DNA of 27,724 nucleotides from a virus, in the IMG/VR virus record IMGVR_UViG_3300028844_001097, positions 1 through 27,724 of that record, one strand, 5' to 3'. Made by a program: the position numbers and the translations under genes. The notes below the pieces were generated by a model, which saw only the letters and a program-made list of their open reading frames with translations, did not search any database and was not told the origin of the DNA. Positions within the stretch are counted from its first letter, which is position 1. Every line of letters begins with the position of its first letter. Below, piece after piece: positions 1 through 13,848 of the stretch.

Positions 1-1851
1 CTGACCTTCGCTCCAAGGTGTCTGGATGACGCCGCCAGAGTTAATCAGCGGCATGTGACGGTCGAGGTTTTCAGCGACCAAGACGCCGCCAGCGTGGCGT
101 GAGATGCTACGCATATTGCCGAACAGGTTATCAACGTGAGTAGCAATGTGTGGATACTTGTCGAAGAAAGCCTGGAGTGTTTCACTGTATTCTTTGACTT
201 CATCAAAGGTCGGTGTATAGACACCAGCAGTTTGACCGTGAGCCTTCTTGGCTAGAGGGGTTGCTTCCGCCATCATCACACTGGTCACCTTATTGACCTC
301 GGTAAAGGGAACTTCATAGAACTTCCCAATGTCCTTAATCAGGGACCGCAACTGAAGCGTGTTGAAATTGCTGATTGGAACAACTGTGGTCTGTCCCCAG
401 TCGTCAGCAAGCATCTGTTTGAGGAGCATTGGATTTTCTAGATCATAATCAATGTCCGGATAGCCTGTGCCGCCCTTAGTCAAGAACCTCTCGAACTGAA
501 GGTTGTACTTGATCGGGTCAATCTGTGTGATATCTAAAACATAGGACAGGAGTGAGCCAGCGGCTGAACCTCGTCCAAGACCCACAAGCATTTCTTCCTG
601 AGCCTTATCACTAATCGCCTTCATCGTCAGGAAGTATTGAGCGAAGCCACGGTCTTTAATAATATTGAGTTCGTACTTGAGACGATCAACATACTCTGGT
701 TCCGTTAGTTCTTTATTTTTTAGTCCCGTCAATGCGTCAGCCGTGAGAGCCTGGATAGCAGTCTTGCCTTCAGGTACCACGAACTCGGGCAAGCGAACCT
801 CATCGTTAGGAACGAAGTCTTCACAGCGATCAAATGCAATGTGGTGAGTACGCTCAATGCTATCCCGAATGAAGTGATCTTCATACTCGACCTTGGATCG
901 CTTGGAGTAGTTCTTGTAACTCTCCCACATCTGATCGCCGTTCTTGGGATAGAGTTCGTAGCCGACATCATCAACCGACTCAGGCAGGGCGTTTGGATCT
1001 TCTGCCCAGGCTGGAGCTTTGCCTGCCCAGCCGATGCGTTTATACATCTCACGGTCTTTCCAAAGTTCTGGTCGTGGGTAGTGACTGTCGGCAGTGCTGA
1101 TAACCTCGACACCCATTTCCATACAAGCCTGGATGATGTAGTTGTTTCCTAGGTGCTGCTCGGGAATACTGTTCCACTGGACCTCGCCATAAAAGCGATC
1201 GCCGAAGATCTCCTTGAACTGTGCAATCGTGTTCCGCATGGCAGACAAGACATGCTCTTCGCCCTTGTCTTTGTTCTTCCAGAAGTCTGCGAACAATGGA
1301 CCAGACATACAGGCACTGCTGATGATGAGCCCCTCGTTGTACTTGTCCAGCATCTCGAAATCCATACGTGGATATCGGTAGAAGTTTTCTGGGCGATAGC
1401 TATCTGAAATTAACTGGAACAGATTGTTTAGACCTGTTTGGTTTTGAGCAACCATCACTAGGTGACGGCGTTCGTTTAGGGGATTTCTTTTCTTGCCTCG
1501 GTCCTCGTCCTCGACCGTCATCCCATATTCTTCTTTCTTTTGCCGCTTCTTCGCATTGGCTTTGTGCTCTTCGTACATTGTACGCCATTTACGATGGGAC
1601 TTAATGAAGTAGGATTCACATCCGTAGATGGCTTTGAACTCCTTGCCGTCTGCACGCATTTTCTTCAAATGCTCGACCTGAAACGAGAGACCGTTCATGT
1701 GTCCGTGGTCTGTGAGAGAGTGGGCGTTCATCCCATTCTCATAGGCGAAGTCCATATGTTCGCCAGGCATTCCCAGTCCGTCAAACGGCGAGAGTCCAGA
1801 GTGAGCGTGCAATCCCACGAATGGGATCTTGCTTTCAATGCGGTTGGTCAT
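1..1851 (-). CDS. dnaE: DNA polymerase III alpha subunit, C family (DnaE type), 3' end outside window
   Basis: The reading frame is open for 617 codons from an ATG at 1851 to the left edge, so the C-terminal part (fingers, clamp-binding and OB regions) is not seen. Residues 8-260 form a PHP domain: LHAHSGLSPFDG with H15 and H17, SLTDHGHMNG at 45-54, YGCESYF at 76-82 and STADSHY at 252-258, so the usual metal ligands look intact. The palm follows, with GRGSAAGS at 426-433 and the catalytic PDIDYD at 465-470, then RHAGGVLVA at 585-593. There is no inserted DEDD exonuclease, so this is DnaE-like rather than PolC-like. The role is template-directed DNA synthesis at the phage fork; intact PHP domains in this family can supply 3'-5' proofreading. 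A GAAAGG ribosome site lies 8 nt before the ATG, and the gene has its own promoter. Family assignment is very secure; role as main replicase is inference. Confidence 0.96.
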   Translation of the reverse strand, partial: MTNRIESKIPFVGLHAHSGLSPFDGLGMPGEHMDFAYENGMNAHSLTDHGHMNGLSFQVEHLKKMRADGKEFKAIYGCESYFIKSHRKWRTMYEEHKANAKKRQKKEEYGMTVEDEDRGKKRNPLNERRHLVMVAQNQTGLNNLFQLISDSYRPENFYRYPRMDFEMLDKYNEGLIISSACMSGPLFADFWKNKDKGEEHVLSAMRNTIAQFKEIFGDRFYGEVQWNSIPEQHLGNNYIIQACMEMGVEVISTADSHYPRPELWKDREMYKRIGWAGKAPAWAEDPNALPESVDDVGYELYPKNGDQMWESYKNYSKRSKVEYEDHFIRDSIERTHHIAFDRCEDFVPNDEVRLPEFVVPEGKTAIQALTADALTGLKNKELTEPEYVDRLKYELNIIKDRGFAQYFLTMKAISDKAQEEMLVGLGRGSAAGSLLSYVLDITQIDPIKYNLQFERFLTKGGTGYPDIDYDLENPMLLKQMLADDWGQTTVVPISNFNTLQLRSLIKDIGKFYEVPFTEVNKVTSVMMAEATPLAKKAHGQTAGVYTPTFDEVKEYSETLQAFFDKYPHIATHVDNLFGNMRSISRHAGGVLVAENLDRHMPLINSGGVIQTPWSEGQ

Positions 1852-1988: not shown

Positions 1989-3248
1989 TTATCCTAAAGG
2001 AGAAATATATCCGTCGCTATGATCAAGTTTATATTCCAAATCTACAATGTATTGTGGGAGTTCGGGCTCAATGTCGGGACTAAATAAATTAGCTATAAGA
2101 GTCTGGTGACCACGCACGTTATCATAACTTCCGTAATGAAACTTCTTGACCACCCCCTCGCACAACTCGTTATATTCGTCTAGATCATCTCGATGTTCGT
2201 GTACCAAGGCTGCCTCGATTTGTGTTGCCGCATCAGTTAAGTTAGCTCGCTTATAATAATATCCAAGCTCAGGCATAAACTCTGAATTGTGTACGACTGG
2301 GAGTCTCAAGGTTGCTGCCTCTAGCATCGTGTAGTTCAAACCATTTTCAAAATGATGATGGAACATCACTTGAGCGTGCTTTGTTATTGTTGAAAATTTC
2401 CAACGATCTTCAAAATATACTTTCTTATCCTTTAGTAATTTCATTGACTGAAAATATTCTTGGATTGGCTTATTGTGGAGCCTGTGATGTCGGGAACCAA
2501 AAAGAAGTATTTCGCCAAAATTAGGGTTTTCTCGTTCCACAACTAGATTTGCAGCCTGGAATGGGAAAAGTGATGTCTTCAGTACATTGATGTTCGGTTC
2601 TGTTGCAAAAAGGTTTTTATTCTTTGGGTTGCCTGGGCGGAATAGAGGACCATGCTCATCATAATGTTTGTCTTCTTTATACTGCTGCAATAATAAATCT
2701 GGTCCCCATATATACGGACAGACATGTGCTATGGGAGCATCGTACCTATGCTTGATATAGTCCTTTTGCCAAGCAAAATGAGGAGACATCCATACAGCGT
2801 CGATCTTAACGTCTTCTCTCATTAAAGACCTATTTGCAAAATTTCTTTTACCTTCAACAGCGGGCAGAAGATCACCGAAGCACATGGTTTCCTGATCCAT
2901 GACATAGCGATTTCCATAGACGACAGCTACTAACTTTACTCTATTCTTTTTTAATTTGTTGGCAACACTATTATTTAGGGCGACACTTACAAGCAACAAT
3001 GCATCAAGATGATATTTGTCGTAAAAAAGCTGAAGGTTGTAGGCGGTTTCGCCGAAGATCTCTACTTCATCAGGCCACTCTTTCTTACTGGATAATGGAT
3101 AGAACACCAACACTGGCTTGACCATTGGAACTTTTTTTAGGCACTTGTAAAGAAAAAGTGCATTTTGGTGTAACCCATTGGAAAAGTATCCGTTTGGATC
3201 ACCACTTGTTAAAACCCCTATAATTTTGTCTTGCGGCTGGTTGGTCAT
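1989..3248 (-). CDS. GT-B-like glycosyltransferase resembling the DUF2827 family
   Basis: This 419-residue protein opens with a GxxTSGDPNGYFSNGLHQNA region, resembling the N-terminus of DUF2827 proteins (SNGxxQN pattern), which are predicted GT-B glycosyltransferases. The second half has FGSRHHRLHNK near residue 255 and NGLNYTMLEAATLRLPVVHN near residues 320-340. That acidic stretch before a proline-valine strand is the kind of donor-binding segment seen in GT-B enzymes. No signal peptide or membrane segment is visible, so it should act in the cytoplasm. Its substrate (phage DNA base, virion protein or cell-surface sugar) cannot be told from sequence. An AAGGAG site sits 8 nt before the ATG at 3248. 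It is the last gene of its operon, directly before a strong terminator. The family call is from memory of the motif pattern; function is inferred. Confidence 0.72.
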   Translation of the reverse strand: MTNQPQDKIIGVLTSGDPNGYFSNGLHQNALFLYKCLKKVPMVKPVLVFYPLSSKKEWPDEVEIFGETAYNLQLFYDKYHLDALLLVSVALNNSVANKLKKNRVKLVAVVYGNRYVMDQETMCFGDLLPAVEGKRNFANRSLMREDVKIDAVWMSPHFAWQKDYIKHRYDAPIAHVCPYIWGPDLLLQQYKEDKHYDEHGPLFRPGNPKNKNLFATEPNINVLKTSLFPFQAANLVVERENPNFGEILLFGSRHHRLHNKPIQEYFQSMKLLKDKKVYFEDRWKFSTITKHAQVMFHHHFENGLNYTMLEAATLRLPVVHNSEFMPELGYYYKRANLTDAATQIEAALVHEHRDDLDEYNELCEGVVKKFHYGSYDNVRGHQTLIANLFSPDIEPELPQYIVDLEYKLDHSDGYISPLG

Positions 3249-9247: not shown

Positions 9248-10318
9248 CTACTTCTTCCCTATTCTATACTCATCTTCGATAATGTCAAGAACTTTATTCT
9301 TGAACTTTTTGTCTTCCAAGAGGGACATGAATTCTTTAGCTTGGAACTTTTTATCTTCGCCGTCAACATTGATAGTATACCAAGCACCACTACGAGTGCA
9401 GCCGGGTGTATTAGCAATAGCACTAAGCCAGGATCCTTCATCATCAACTCCAACTCGATCATTTGCAAGATCGAACAGTACGTCGAACTGGCATGAGCGA
9501 GGGCACGGACCAAAGCGGGACTTCATAGTCTTAGCACTGGTGTGGAACCCAATCACCTGTTTCTTCTCGTTGAGGATCTGACCGTTGGCTTTGCCCTTGT
9601 GTTGAGTGAGCCAGATACGACTAGAAGCGTGGTAGGGCAAAGCCTTACCAGCTGGTTCGACTCGGTTATCCCCAAACATCACGCCGATATTGATCTTCAG
9701 TTGGTTCGTGAAGACTACAGCGATTTGTTCTTTGCCGAGTGCCTCTGTTACTTTACGCATACCTTTGGCTAGTGCCTTAGCAGTTAAGCCGATTCGACTG
9801 TTGGGGTCATAATCGCCCTCAACCTCTGCTCGAACCGGAGTACCAGCAACACTATCCCAAACGATACAAACCAATCGATCGGGGGCTTTCTCCCTGATAA
9901 GACCGATAAGTCTCTCAATGTTCTCGAACACCTCTTCAATGGTTCCGGGCTGTACATAAATAAAGTTATTCTTTGTATCGAGCCCTAGTTGTTCCATGAA
10001 GTCAGGGGAGGCTGCATTTTCAGTGTCGATATAGACCGCCAAGCCTCCCATCTTTTGAGTGTTCGCCAGGATCTGGGTGACGATCAAACTCTTACCACTA
10101 GCAGATTCACCTGCAATAGTCGTAAGCTTGCCCACAGGAATCCCGCCATCACGACGATTAGAGATAATATAGTTCAGAAGAGTTGAACCTGTTGAGATCC
10201 AAGTCTTTACGTCTGTTGGGTTTTCCCCATGCAGATCATATGCAATGTTTTCTTTTGCTGCCTTGTTTAACTCGCTACGCAAGTCATTTACAAGACTCTT
10301 TTGTTTTGTACTAGCCAT
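9248..10318 (-). CDS. RecA/UvsX-like recombinase
   Basis: The 356-residue ATPase should coat single strands and drive strand exchange in recombination-dependent replication and repair. Walker A is GESASGKS at 70-77, Walker B is LVCIVWDSVAG at 149-159, and VVFTNQLKINIG carries the NQ sensor of RecA proteins. IPVGKLTTIAG just before Walker A is typical. The frame stays open 20 codons further upstream, but the start MASTKQKS at 10318 is preferred because GGAG sits 7 nt before it and the upstream part lies in a structured leader. Length is like E. coli RecA (353) and T4 UvsX (391). It follows SSB by 60 nt, so both may share transcripts with separate translational control. Confidence 0.92.
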   Translation of the reverse strand: MASTKQKSLVNDLRSELNKAAKENIAYDLHGENPTDVKTWISTGSTLLNYIISNRRDGGIPVGKLTTIAGESASGKSLIVTQILANTQKMGGLAVYIDTENAASPDFMEQLGLDTKNNFIYVQPGTIEEVFENIERLIGLIREKAPDRLVCIVWDSVAGTPVRAEVEGDYDPNSRIGLTAKALAKGMRKVTEALGKEQIAVVFTNQLKINIGVMFGDNRVEPAGKALPYHASSRIWLTQHKGKANGQILNEKKQVIGFHTSAKTMKSRFGPCPRSCQFDVLFDLANDRVGVDDEGSWLSAIANTPGCTRSGAWYTINVDGEDKKFQAKEFMSLLEDKKFKNKVLDIIEDEYRIGKK

Positions 10319-10323
10319 TTTAT

Positions 10324-10362
10324 CTCCAAAGGTGGAGAGGCACCTGTAACCCCGTGCCTCCC
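10324..10362 (-). promoter_or_regulatory. structured leader with ribosome-site hairpin before the recombinase gene
   Basis: In the minus-strand RNA, GAGGCAC (10360-10354) pairs perfectly with GTGCCTC (10343-10337) across a 10-nt loop. Just downstream CTCCA (10337-10333) pairs with TGGAG (10328-10324) across a CCTT loop, burying the GGAG ribosome site of the recombinase gene. The two stems share one base, 10337. No T tract follows, so a terminator is unlikely; translational control is inferred. Confidence 0.5.
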
Positions 10363-10378
10363 TGCGGGTAGCGGTCAA

Positions 10379-11164
10379 CTATGCTAAAAGATCGTCGAAC
10401 GCTGACTCAATGTCTGAAACACCTTCAAGAGCGTTGCCGCTGTTGGCTGCTGGAGCAGTGGTGGTGTCGTTGTTGTAACGAGTTGTTTCGTTACCACCGT
10501 CGGTTGTTTCAGTCTCACCCAAAGTTTGCATGAGAACCTTTTCACACTGCTCGAAGGTAGTACGTTCGAAGACGTCATCTACTACAGGCAGGGTTTGCAG
10601 AAGAGTGTTGACTTGCTCTTCAGAGTCGGCGAGGGCACTAGTGCGTCGCATTGGACGGATATCGGTAGTTGGGAATGATTGTCCCTGCTTCTTACCGTAG
10701 TCAATGCGAAGGTCAGTACCCTTCTCGGTATCGGTGATATCACCGTATTCTGGATCCAGTACTACATCAAGTAGTGCTTGGTAGGTGGTGCGGGAAAAGC
10801 CCCACCAGCGAACACCCTTGTCCTCTTCGCCACGGACGAGGACGGGAGCAAATACTCGCATCTTAGGCCAGAAACGCTTGGCAGCCTCCTTGGAAGCGTC
10901 AGTGCCTTCGTTCCAAAGCGAAGTGCCGTACTCGGCAATTGGATCATCGTCACCAAAAGTCCGTGGGCTTAGAACGGTCGTGCGACCTTCGGCACCCATT
11001 GAATAATGGTAGTATGCTTCAAAGAACGGATCACCGCTCTCGGGACAGACAAGACGAAGCTGGTGTGTTCCCTCTTCTGGCTTCCAGAAGTAGTCATTGG
11101 TGTCTCCACCTCGATTGGTTAGGGCAGCGTGTTTTGCCCGCATCTTACTTAAGTCAATACCCAT
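10379..11164 (-). CDS. single-stranded DNA-binding protein, gp32-like
   Basis: The 261-residue protein has the plan of T4 gp32: a basic N-terminus (DLSKMRAKHAALTNRGG) for cooperativity, an aromatic-rich core (WKPEEGTHQLRLVCPESG, FFEAYYHYSMG, RWWGFSRTTYQALLDVV) and a flexible Thr/Asn linker ending in an acidic tip, SDIESAFDDLLA, of the kind that recruits replication partners. The zinc-binding Cys/His cluster of T4 gp32 is absent. It would coat single strands at the fork and work with helicase, recombinase and polymerases. A GGAG site 7 nt before the ATG and its own promoter suggest strong expression. It lies directly before the recombinase gene. Assignment rests on architecture and context. 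Confidence 0.85.
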   Translation of the reverse strand: MGIDLSKMRAKHAALTNRGGDTNDYFWKPEEGTHQLRLVCPESGDPFFEAYYHYSMGAEGRTTVLSPRTFGDDDPIAEYGTSLWNEGTDASKEAAKRFWPKMRVFAPVLVRGEEDKGVRWWGFSRTTYQALLDVVLDPEYGDITDTEKGTDLRIDYGKKQGQSFPTTDIRPMRRTSALADSEEQVNTLLQTLPVVDDVFERTTFEQCEKVLMQTLGETETTDGGNETTRYNNDTTTAPAANSGNALEGVSDIESAFDDLLA

Positions 11165-11285: not shown

Positions 11286-11720
11286 TTATTCTTCGGCTGG
11301 CTCTTCTTCAATTTTGAAGATTTTGCTGACCTCAACTGGGTGTGCTTTGAGTTCTTTTCCCGATGTGAGGAGGATAGAATTCTCGTACTGTGTCCAGTCA
11401 AGCTTGAGATCTCTGCCTGTCTTCCCGTCATGCTGGGAAGCGACAGCGGCATTGAGAGCGTTGATAGTGTATAGAGTATTGGTCTGCTTCTTACGATGCA
11501 TACGCATGGTGAAAAGACGAGGGTTGAAGGGCTTACCCTTTTCTACCACGGCGTTATAAGTAATAATCTTCTTTTCGGGATTATCCTTGTCCTCTAGCAA
11601 AAAAATGAGATTGTTAGTAATCTCAATGTTATTGACTATGAACTCAACCTCTTCTTGTATTTTTTGCTCGTCGTCAGTCATCAGAAACGATGCTAGCAAA
11701 ACTCCACGTCTGTTCGTCAT
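11286..11720 (-). CDS. hypothetical protein, 144 residues, upstream of SSB
   Basis: I do not recognise a family with certainty. Visible features are an acidic helical stretch (TDDEQKIQEEVEFIVNNIEI), a strand LIFLLEDKDNPEKKIITYNA, a basic centre with RLFTMRMHRKKQTNTLYTIN, then DWTQYENSILLTSGKEL and an acidic end (FKIEEEPAEE). No membrane segments are seen. The MHRKKQTNTLYTINALNAAV segment looks like the conserved core. The ATG at 11720 has a GGGGAAA site about 10 nt upstream; an internal ATG 13 codons later is possible. It lies between the FtsZ-like gene and SSB, so a role in replication or its regulation is plausible but only by position. Confidence 0.7.
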   Translation of the reverse strand: MTNRRGVLLASFLMTDDEQKIQEEVEFIVNNIEITNNLIFLLEDKDNPEKKIITYNAVVEKGKPFNPRLFTMRMHRKKQTNTLYTINALNAAVASQHDGKTGRDLKLDWTQYENSILLTSGKELKAHPVEVSKIFKIEEEPAEE

Positions 11721-11777: not shown

Positions 11778-12635
11778 TTACTTGCCCGCTAGAGCCTGAA
11801 TATTAGAGGAATAGGCTACACAGAGAACCATCATCGTCTCAAGAGTTGTCTCATACACTGAAAAGCTTGTGGATACATCTTCTGTTTTGTAGCCTTTGAC
11901 GTGCTCTTTTATGCGTTTAACAAGTGTTGTGTCTTCAGCTAGCTCTTCTTTTGGTACCCCATAAAAGAAGTGGATATCTTTAACATCCTCTATGTTGAAA
12001 AGGAGGTTGATATCTTTTTTATCTTCTTCCAGCGAAGAGACCCCGTAAGTTATGACTCTAGCAATTTCAGGGGGGCTGATTGGATTAGCTAGGACGGGCT
12101 TCGTATGATTGAAGAAGTTTATCATCGCTACTACATAAGCCACAAAATAAGAGATGGTTTTCTCGTACTCATTTACTGGAACGTGACCCGCCAACTCTTC
12201 CACCTTCAATTTGTCCACCAGAATGATGTTCTCAAAGAGTCCCGAACGAGCGTATTCCTGCAAGATATTGAAGGCTATCTTGTCGTCACGCTTCTGGATC
12301 TCTGATATCATCTGCCTATCAGGGCAAACATAAAGAACATTTAATTTAACGTCTTTTATAGTTTCTAGGATTTTTAAGGTTGCCCCAGAGATAGGATCGC
12401 CGCCCTCTATAATAAGAAGAACTTGATCTTTTTTCTTGATTGACCGCAGATAAACGCTGACCTCATCAATATCAATATTCGCCTCGAATGAAGCCATGTC
12501 ACCGTGCTCGCCGATGGAAAGGCTCCCACGCTCATCAATATCGCCATCAATCTTGTAAATTCTGTATTCAGGGTAGGCCGTTAGCTCTTCTGCGATTGCA
12601 CAGCCAAGCTTCCCTAATCCAATAACTTTATCCAA
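11778..12635 (-). CDS. divergent FtsZ/tubulin-like protein
   Basis: The 285-residue protein follows the order of the FtsZ/tubulin GTPase domain. VIGLGKLGCAIAEEL at 4-18 matches the first nucleotide loop and helix. A hydrophobic strand then EGGDPISGATLKIL at 77-90 sits where the GGGTGTG signature loop belongs. LNVLYVCPDRQM at 98-109, a long helix, and LFENIILVDKLKVEEL at 133-148 mirror the 'VAVVTKPF ... LITIPNDKLL' region. ANPISPPEIARVITYGVSSL at 183-202 mirrors the catalytic T7-loop region, but the NxDxxD residues are changed to NPISPPE. The signature loop is degenerate too, so GTP hydrolysis is doubtful. Phage relatives (PhuZ, TubZ) build filaments for DNA positioning. The start is a TTG at 12635 with AAGGA 8 nt upstream, overlapping the polymerase stop by 8 nt. 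Fold similarity is by eye and needs a profile search; a Rossmann NAD-binding protein is the main alternative. Confidence 0.55.
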   Translation of the reverse strand: MDKVIGLGKLGCAIAEELTAYPEYRIYKIDGDIDERGSLSIGEHGDMASFEANIDIDEVSVYLRSIKKKDQVLLIIEGGDPISGATLKILETIKDVKLNVLYVCPDRQMISEIQKRDDKIAFNILQEYARSGLFENIILVDKLKVEELAGHVPVNEYEKTISYFVAYVVAMINFFNHTKPVLANPISPPEIARVITYGVSSLEEDKKDINLLFNIEDVKDIHFFYGVPKEELAEDTTLVKRIKEHVKGYKTEDVSTSFSVYETTLETMMVLCVAYSSNIQALAGK

Positions 12636-13848
12636 GTTGTATATCCTTCATAGAACCCAGAGTTTTACCTCTTTTTATATTTACCATGAAATTCCCGAAA
12701 TTCGTGGAACTCATAAGTGTAACCAATGATTTAAGTAGGTGCTCATCCTCTTTTTTCATATCAATTACGATAGCATCGTGGATTAAAAAGGCGATATGAG
12801 AGCCGGCAGACTGCTTTCGTAGGAGGTATTCAAGCTTTAGAGCCTGCTTTAGGGTTAGTTCTGCGGCGGTAGATTGCACCAAATAGTTGAGAGCGTGATG
12901 TTCGCTCGTATCGGGTATTTCCTTCCTAAACGGTGTTCTAACTGTATTGCCGTCCCAGTATTCTTTTAGGAGTCGGTCCTTCTCGTAGAACTCTGCTAGT
13001 TTTAGTACGTCTTGCCTGATGACTGCTGAACGAGAGCCGTATAGCCAGGCAAAAAACGCTATTTTTGCCTTGTCCCTCGTGTGGATGTCTGTGAAGATTT
13101 CCTTAAGGTGGAAGTCATGGACATCTCCCTCTGGTTGTTCCTTGCCGAGAAGACCCAGCAGGGTGCGAACTTCAGCACCGTTAAAATCTAGTTCGATGAA
13201 GTAGTCATTCTGTGGTTTGACGGCTGAACGGAATTCCTTGTTCATTGTGAGGATAGGCACGCAACCCTTTTTAGTTGTAAGGCGACCAGTCTTGGTGCCA
13301 AACTGATTGTACTTGACGCAGGGGGCTGCCTCTATAATGTTTTTGGCATGATGCTTTAGTTTTGGATCCTGTAGATATGCTGATACTCTCTGCTTATCAA
13401 CTGTGACTCTTTTGTGGCTGATATCTTCTAGCATCATTGAGACGTGCTTATAGAAGTCATACCTTACGGGCTTTTCTATGTTCTTTGAGACGTATTCAGT
13501 TATTTTATTTTTTACCTCGCAAAACTCAACCAAGAACCTTTCGGGAACTAGGTCGAAAAAGCAGTTTTCAGAGGTATCGACCTGCGAGATCGCTAGAGAG
13601 CGTTTGAATGCGAGAACTTTATTGGATACGTCCTCCCAGTCATCCTTTAGGTACTCTGGGATTGCGTCGGCAATCTTGCCGCCCTCAAGATATAACGAAA
13701 TGTATTCTATATCCAAGTCCCGTAGGTACGGAGCGTACTTCCAGGTTTGAGTGAGTTCAGGAGGGAACCCCTCTGGGTCGAAGATTAGCTGATTATCGGC
13801 ATAAATGCCGACGCATTCGGTTTTATCGTCAAGAGTCTGAAATAACAA
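12628..13848 (-). CDS. A-family DNA polymerase, polymerase domain only
   Basis: At 406 residues this is far shorter than Pol I Klenow or T7 polymerase and has no 3'-5' exonuclease motifs. The polymerase motifs are in order: KTGRLTTKKG at 186-195, motif A ELDFNGAEVRTLLGL at 219-233 (D221), the O-helix R258-K262-F266-Y270 in RDKAKIAFFAWLYGS, NYLVQSTAAELTL at 321-333, and motif C LIHDAIVIDM at 355-364. The second acidic residue of the usual HDE is alanine here (A359). Phe at 266 corresponds to F762 of Pol I. Residues 100-160 look like a reduced thumb. It would serve repair, gap filling or initiation beside the C-family enzyme. The start is a TTG at 13848, 6 nt after GAGG and 10 nt beyond the stop of the virion gene. 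Family secure; role inferred. Confidence 0.9.
   Translation of the reverse strand: MLFQTLDDKTECVGIYADNQLIFDPEGFPPELTQTWKYAPYLRDLDIEYISLYLEGGKIADAIPEYLKDDWEDVSNKVLAFKRSLAISQVDTSENCFFDLVPERFLVEFCEVKNKITEYVSKNIEKPVRYDFYKHVSMMLEDISHKRVTVDKQRVSAYLQDPKLKHHAKNIIEAAPCVKYNQFGTKTGRLTTKKGCVPILTMNKEFRSAVKPQNDYFIELDFNGAEVRTLLGLLGKEQPEGDVHDFHLKEIFTDIHTRDKAKIAFFAWLYGSRSAVIRQDVLKLAEFYEKDRLLKEYWDGNTVRTPFRKEIPDTSEHHALNYLVQSTAAELTLKQALKLEYLLRKQSAGSHIAFLIHDAIVIDMKKEDEHLLKSLVTLMSSTNFGNFMVNIKRGKTLGSMKDIQLG

Follow-up and report, generated by a model that had tools for sequence, protein, structure and literature searches.

A predicted tubulin-fold protein lacking the usual GTPase elements is encoded downstream of a family-A DNA polymerase in T4-like phages

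Results and discussion

A degenerate tubulin relative encoded behind a phage polymerase

A large family of phage proteins, referred to here as pseudo-tubulins, is predicted to have kept the tubulin fold while losing the parts that serve polymerisation and hydrolysis, and wherever this could be tested its gene lies behind that of a DNA polymerase. The member analysed here is encoded in a 27,724-nucleotide stretch of viral DNA (IMG/VR record IMGVR_UViG_3300028844_001097; hereafter the window). The loss of the GTP-splitting parts, taken together with the place behind polA, suggests a cytoskeletal protein re-used in replication or repair. A role of this kind is likely, and the reading that we favour overall, with modest confidence, is a non-hydrolysing pseudo-tubulin which would work with the phage PolA or its neighbours in these processes. 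Related phages offer a system for asking how a cytoskeletal protein turns into something else, with an intermediate state, in which the guanine site is kept, found beside an end state in which it is lost and an intact tubulin is encoded as well.

The mapped features are listed in Table 1. The open reading frame is as given by the original prediction, as are the segments it quoted, namely VIGLGKLGCAIAEEL (residues 4–18), EGGDPISGA (77–85), LNVLYVCPDRQM (98–109), NIILVDKLKVEEL (136–148) and NPISPPEIARV (184–194), whose order mirrors that of FtsZ in the structural models. The TTG start, with four in-frame codons to the upstream stop, is retained in 12 relatives (one 100% identical), and across 46 loci the equivalent site holds TTG, GTG or ATG, with the start a few codons upstream in five. 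Purifying selection on the gene is strong, with dN/dS values of 0.029, 0.043 and 0.043 in the three of 11 pairs of relatives whose synonymous sites were unsaturated. Within the family signature LQEYARSG the Q, R and S are invariant in 56/56 rows of the family alignment (A3).

Table 1. Features of the pseudo-tubulin locus and of the TubZ-like genes in related contigs. Positions refer to the window unless a locus is named.
Feature	Position	Strand	Basis
Pseudo-tubulin gene, 285 aa	11778..12635	(-)	ORF, conserved TTG start at 12635, fold
Short family-A DNA polymerase (polA), 406 aa, constant upstream neighbour	12628..13848	(-)	
Eight-base overlap between polA (3' end) and pseudo-tubulin gene (5' end)	12628..12635	(-)	coordinates
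144 aa protein, downstream neighbour in window clade	11286..11720	(-)	
gp32-like ssDNA-binding protein	10379..11164	(-)	
UvsX/RecA-like recombinase	9248..10378	(-)	
Start of DNA polymerase III alpha gene (PHP and DNA_pol3_alpha domains)	1..1851	(-)	
419 aa protein with DUF2827 match	1989..3248	(-)	
T1 loop and H1 start, residues 4–11 VIGLGKLG; G6, G8, G11 conserved	12603..12626	(-)	model, alignment
T4 (tubulin signature) position, residues 77–85 EGGDPISGA, degenerate	12381..12407	(-)	model, alignments
Family signature LQEYARSG, residues 125–132, H5 end	12240..12263	(-)	alignment
T6 guanine-site position, residue K142	12210..12212	(-)	alignments
Central helix H7, residues 154–176	12108..12176	(-)	model, alignments
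T7 position, residues 181–193; without NxDxxD, without H8 in model	12057..12095	(-)	models, alignments
TubZ-like gene, ~378 aa	L146:4511-5647	(-)	
TubZ-like gene	L147:4744-5877	(+)	

Structural and sequence relationship to tubulins

An AlphaFold2 model of the window protein, built on a 41-row alignment, reached a pLDDT of 92.7 and a pTM of 0.91, and a second model, of the relative at locus L110 (33% identity with the window protein, 56 rows), a pLDDT of 95.3. Both have the layout of the tubulin superfamily, that is an N-terminal GTPase-type domain, a long central helix H7 and a C-terminal domain. All 50 Foldseek matches listed from the PDB were FtsZ or TubZ (best E 5e-13; TMq 0.63–0.73, with one row at 0.42), and VIA-align placed the archaeal tubulin-like CetZ first (3zid, Z 25.3, 3.1 Å over 264 residues), followed by FtsZ (2r6r, Z 23.9), TubZ (4ei7, Z 23.8) and tubulins (Z ~22), so that every PDB match listed was FtsZ, TubZ, CetZ or tubulin. 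The L110 model likewise matched CetZ (Z 25.0, 2.7 Å over 254). In the viral structure library BFVD the top matches of both models were phage FtsZ and PhuZ-like proteins (best phage FtsZ TMq 0.75–0.78), the tubulin rows having at most 16% identity and neither list containing a close relative. On these models the window protein almost certainly has a tubulin/FtsZ fold.

Ordinary sequence and profile searches left room for another reading, in which an NAD- or nucleotide-binding Rossmann protein is misread as FtsZ. The window protein matched no tubulin family in Pfam and no PhuZ PHROG up to an E value of 1, and a sequence search of the PDB with the protein or with profiles A1 or A3 returned no tubulin. 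Through its GxGxxG start, 22 of 56 family members reach the Pfam family TrkA_N (best 8.8e-6), compared with 3/56 that reach the tubulin family PF00091 (best 0.011), and the best profile match in the PDB was the Rossmann protein KtrA (1e-3). When A3 was compared with eight FtsZ sequences by hhalign, 240 columns aligned in the correct order (E 0.019; the window clade profile A2 likewise gave E ~0.02), and E. coli TrkA scored close to FtsZ but over 26 columns. The FtsZ and TrkA scores thus leave the choice between Rossmann and tubulin undecided.

The choice was decided by a bridge through TubZ-like proteins encoded by some of the phages themselves (described below). The family profile A3 aligned with the TubZ-like profile A7 over 255 columns (probability 93.4%, E 2.6e-7), and residues 100 onward by themselves gave E 5.8e-6, whereas with the same two queries the E values for reversed A7 were 0.16 and 0.13, and all reversed-profile and polA controls lay at E 0.055–0.70. 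A7 in turn matched FtsZ at E 2.9e-10. The window clade alone (A2) aligned with A7 along no more than 59 columns (E 0.005). By profile comparison, then, the family is homologous to undisputed members of the tubulin superfamily, the TubZ-like phage proteins. As tubulins fill the PDB lists, the absence of Rossmann enzymes there proves nothing; in BFVD, however, epimerases and oxidoreductases ranked far below the phage tubulins, aligning over 161–237 columns at TMq 0.30–0.37 (one row with 340 columns at 0.23). The N-terminal third does resemble TrkA_N, but residues 100 onward match the TubZ-like protein and the two models match the tubulin fold over their whole length, and a Rossmann protein is extremely unlikely. 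The predicted fold, C-terminal domain included, is therefore backed by two models and by the sequence bridge.

Loss of GTPase elements and of the guanine site

The tubulin signature of loop T4, GGGTG(S/T)G, is not matched in the family, which has EGGDPISGA in the window protein and GxGxxSG in most aligned relatives. The original prediction held that the G-rich loop was lost; a proper T4 is indeed gone, but the loop is degenerate rather than absent. Loss of the NxDxxD acids of T7, proposed for the window protein, extends to the whole aligned family, which also lacks the T3 loop (alignment with TubZ-like proteins and two models). Helices H8 and H9 are missing in both models, with no helix between H7 and S7. 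A canonical GTPase cycle is, judging from the alignments and models, very likely absent.

The residues expected to hold guanine are the T6 Asn and the H7 motif [FY]xxx[ND]. Outside the window clade N138 is found in 44/46 rows, N158 in 45/46 and H166 in 45/46, and both the T6 Asn and the H7 Asn are retained in 44/46; the T6 Asn is also present in the TubZ-like proteins. The window protein has K142, E158, S162 and A170, the last three standing where most outside relatives have Tyr, Asn and His. Among the 43 window-clade rows of a larger alignment the T6 Asn and the His were found in none and the H7 Asn in four. In a tree built without the guanine-site columns the window clade is a single branch (SH-aLRT 99), and the state of having both Asn maps onto the tree with a minimum of two changes. 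Two loci depart from the simple pattern. L073 falls with the window clade in the tree and retains neither Asn, and the separately placed L088 no longer has the T6 Asn. A TubZ-like gene was not seen in the contigs of either, hence loss of the site does not strictly go with the presence of TubZ.

A fixed place in the replication region

The predicted location beside an A-family polymerase holds well beyond the window. In the window itself the two genes overlap by eight bases, which makes translational coupling likely. With PolA as query, the best 80 of at least 593 relatives (599 matches) were kept, of which 77 had enough downstream sequence, and a pseudo-tubulin lay downstream of polA in 77/77, within 600 bases in 71; these contigs are in part identical to those from the pseudo-tubulin scan. 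Other neighbours of the pseudo-tubulin are gp32, UvsX, dCMP deaminase, 5'-3' exonuclease, DnaB-like helicase and ribonucleotide reductase genes, with baseplate, tape measure, tail tube and sheath genes on the opposite side of the replication genes. At 101 loci the usual order, as far as the fragments allow, was baseplate gene, ~500 aa gene, polA, pseudo-tubulin, gp32, UvsX, exonuclease and helicase, with small genes interspersed at many loci. The 144 aa neighbour found in the window clade has no family match in Pfam or PHROGs and belongs to a cluster of 40 ORFs (C8). The phages encoding the family are a large, T4-like group, as had been predicted from the window, which encodes gp32, UvsX and a tail sheath; a T4-type terminase is present in one relative, and the long contigs measure 155–204 kb.

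Within the window clade, pairwise distances between pseudo-tubulins follow those of PolA closely (r 0.91, 105 pairs), compared with 0.27 for gp32 and 0.13 for UvsX, and r is 0.67 for the gene on the other side of polA (cluster C3). This correlation with PolA could equally arise by linkage if the gp32/UvsX block has recombined. PolA does not stand out in the wider family (r 0.68, against 0.80 for UvsX; partial r 0.35 for polA and 0.49 for C3). The gene overlap, the constant order and the distance pattern are most simply read as the mark of a protein that is produced alongside PolA and acts with PolA or its neighbours.

The fixed place also bears on one of the two roles suggested by the original prediction, inhibition of host FtsZ by mimicry, in which the protein would bind FtsZ ends and block division during infection. 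Phages are known to target FtsZ, described proteins including T7 Gp0.4, lambda Kil and P1 Icd, and an FtsZ-like fold without catalytic acids would suit such an inhibitor. Beyond the fold nothing speaks for it, however, and a constant position behind polA in a replication operon, the occurrence at hundreds of loci and the lack of a T7/H8 surface with which to mimic the longitudinal contact make it very unlikely. Host-takeover genes do not usually occupy fixed places in replication operons.

The short PolA is probably active, as D221, R258, K262, Y270, H357 and D358, presumably the residues of family-A motifs A, B and C by likeness, are invariant in the 17 rows of the polymerase alignment (A8). 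DNA polymerase III alpha (~1140 aa) is encoded in 11/14 long contigs and its gene begins within the window, so PolA is not necessarily the replicase, and its task may lie in repair, recombination or lagging-strand work instead of bulk replication. The pairing of polymerase III alpha with a short PolA seems unusual for a T4-like phage. The Pfam sliding clamp family PF02916 had no match in nine long contigs and its control was equally silent, from which nothing is concluded.

Several smaller genes of the region were also noted. The same gene run as the start of polymerase III alpha includes the 419 aa protein with a DUF2827 match (1.3e-47). In part of the wider family polA and the pseudo-tubulin are separated by a gene of ~105 aa starting KLVRDRIPEII, which by eye looks MazG-like (cluster C11, L126:7684-8001 and 21 other rows of the 101-locus set), and a gene that looks Hsp20-like by eye (cluster C17) precedes gp32 in L002, L004, L006, L013, L037, L042 and L044. 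The gene order of Flavobacterium phage immuto agrees with that of these loci (polA, two small genes, ssb, recombinase, exonuclease, helicase), but nothing of pseudo-tubulin size is annotated in the interval from its polA to ssb.

A second, intact TubZ-like tubulin

When 12 long contigs were searched with the family profile, a second, partial match appeared in 4/6 window-clade contigs and in 0/6 others. It corresponds to an ORF of ~380 aa that is TubZ-like, with PF00091 (Tubulin) at 37.2 bits against a cut-off of 33 bits, PF22453 (TubZ-like_C) above cut-off, a match to TubZ in the PDB at E 7.8e-12 and the loops GGSGGG (T4), GAGK (T3) and DATDYD (T7). Among the 80 TubZ-like loci kept (L155–L234), 78 were 89–100% identical to the query and two were at 85% and 65%, and the only match in a sequenced phage was Bacillus phage G gp137 (21.8%, E 3e-7). 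The gene lies ~30 kb from the pseudo-tubulin. On one side it is flanked by small proteins, of which two appear by eye to be membrane-bound or secreted, and on the other by terminase and portal genes (portal by eye). Around it, at four loci, a search for tubC-like iterons gave two-copy repeats only, which were taken as chance.

With the TubZ-like profile the gene was found in 15/40 window-clade contigs (two of them, L240 and L241, reached via the TubZ-like gene itself) and in 0/40 others. Of 38 window-clade contigs found through the pseudo-tubulin, all 12 with at least 30.5 kb upstream carry it, one with 29.3 kb holds part of it, and the remaining 25 (longest 29.6 kb upstream) are too short and lack it; the pseudo-tubulins of L026 and L027 are identical. 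The window has 15.1 kb upstream and the 100%-identical L001 24.8 kb, neither reaching the place of the TubZ-like gene, hence for the window's own virus a second tubulin is inferred. The gene was present in none of the seven wider-family contigs with more than 50 kb upstream, one of which is L073, and 84.6 kb of contig G030, which has the 65%-identical TubZ-like gene, contained no pseudo-tubulin.

The other role raised originally, a filament partner that co-assembles with, caps or regulates TubZ-like filaments which position or segregate phage DNA, gains weight from this second, intact tubulin in window-clade relatives and from the TubZ-like protein being the family's strongest match among the profiles compared. 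Against it stand the seven wider-family contigs just described, the ~30 kb between the two genes and the missing longitudinal T7/H8 interface. Moreover, in ten contigs with both tubulins the mean identity was 94% for the TubZ-like protein (UvsX 93%, gp32 85%, PolA 63%) but 59% for the pseudo-tubulin, whereas the partner of such a highly conserved protein might itself be expected to be conserved. Such a partnership is possible for the two-tubulin clade only, and overall we consider it unlikely.

An unconventional tubulin that still polymerises by other surfaces, as the sole phage cytoskeleton of the wider family, would be in keeping with the Asn pair retained in most outside rows and with the lack of a TubZ-like gene in the 40 outside contigs, most of which are fragments. 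The family has neither T3, T7 acids nor H8, however, and the base site is lost in the window's clade, which makes continued polymerisation quite unlikely.

Proposed role and comparison with known systems

We return to the favoured reading, a pseudo-tubulin at work in replication or repair. A minimal, degenerate tubulin/FtsZ member would have been recruited into the replication operon as the fixed companion of the short PolA, co-made with it by way of the overlapping genes. It would neither hydrolyse GTP nor build ordinary protofilaments, and may bind PolA or adjacent replication and recombination proteins, acting as a structural adaptor or regulator. PolA itself is quite possibly the direct partner. 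In the wider family bound nucleotide may remain a switch, and in the window clade the protein would work without nucleotide. Where a TubZ-like protein is co-encoded, the pseudo-tubulin could join PolA-bound DNA to the TubZ-like filament, a link that is the least certain step and improbable at present. A fuller version, in which a non-polymerising tubulin-superfamily protein is obligatorily paired with a family-A polymerase, is nucleotide-sensing at first and later nucleotide-free in the TubZ-like-carrying clade, and there perhaps ties PolA-bound DNA to the filament, is put forward tentatively and is on balance doubtful.

Among known systems the TubZ of plasmids and phages (TubZRC) is the nearest in sequence, a relation that runs via the TubZ-like protein of these phages, and shares the fold (VIA-align Z 22–24); the pseudo-tubulin differs in being ~100 aa shorter, in lacking T3, the T7 acids and H8/H9 (models), and in its place in a replication operon. 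FtsZ has the two-domain fold with central H7 and the loop order in common, but the pseudo-tubulin has no GGGTGTG and no NxDxxD, is 11–18% identical in structural alignments, and its window member goes undetected by PF00091. PhuZ of the nucleus-forming jumbo phages is likewise phage-encoded with a tubulin fold, yet hhalign against two PhuZ gave E 0.1 over only 27 columns, PhuZ retains a G-rich T4, and the phages studied here are T4-like. CetZ, the best structural match (Z 25), belongs to archaeal cell-shape GTPases, which are not known from replication operons.

Phage tubulins to date, PhuZ and phage TubZ, are described as filament-forming GTPases that position or segregate DNA (PMC7950403), and two distinct FtsZ/tubulin representatives are reported from jumbo phages (PMC7824862). 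Searches confined to open-access PMC papers listed none on a phage tubulin that is degenerate or linked to a polymerase. An analogy of principle only is offered by AlpA/AlpC of prophage CGP3, a viral cytoskeletal system with an adaptor, reported to be needed for efficient phage DNA replication; it is actin-like and its adaptor is a DNA-binding protein (PMC4446434).

Occurrence of the family

In IMG/VR, 13 loci were found with the single protein as query, 50 with an alignment of ten and at least 566 with an alignment of 41 rows (among 599 pattern matches, 80 of which were kept). Pattern scans with A1 or A3 of genome contigs representing 84,980 species by a single genome each gave no relative, nor did tblastn of 50,697 phage records with five different family members. 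All members to date come from environmental sequence data. A subgroup of the wider family (L066, L067, L085, L102 and others) has a conserved acidic C-terminal tail, LDDQ(D/E)I(S/G), which recalls the tails of SSB or FtsZ and is absent in the window clade. Ordinary-looking bacterial ftsZ genes were noticed in several records deposited as phage (Listeria phage LM, Acinetobacter phage MD-2021a, Enterococcus phage Efs and a faecal Bacteriophage sp.), and these may be host contamination.
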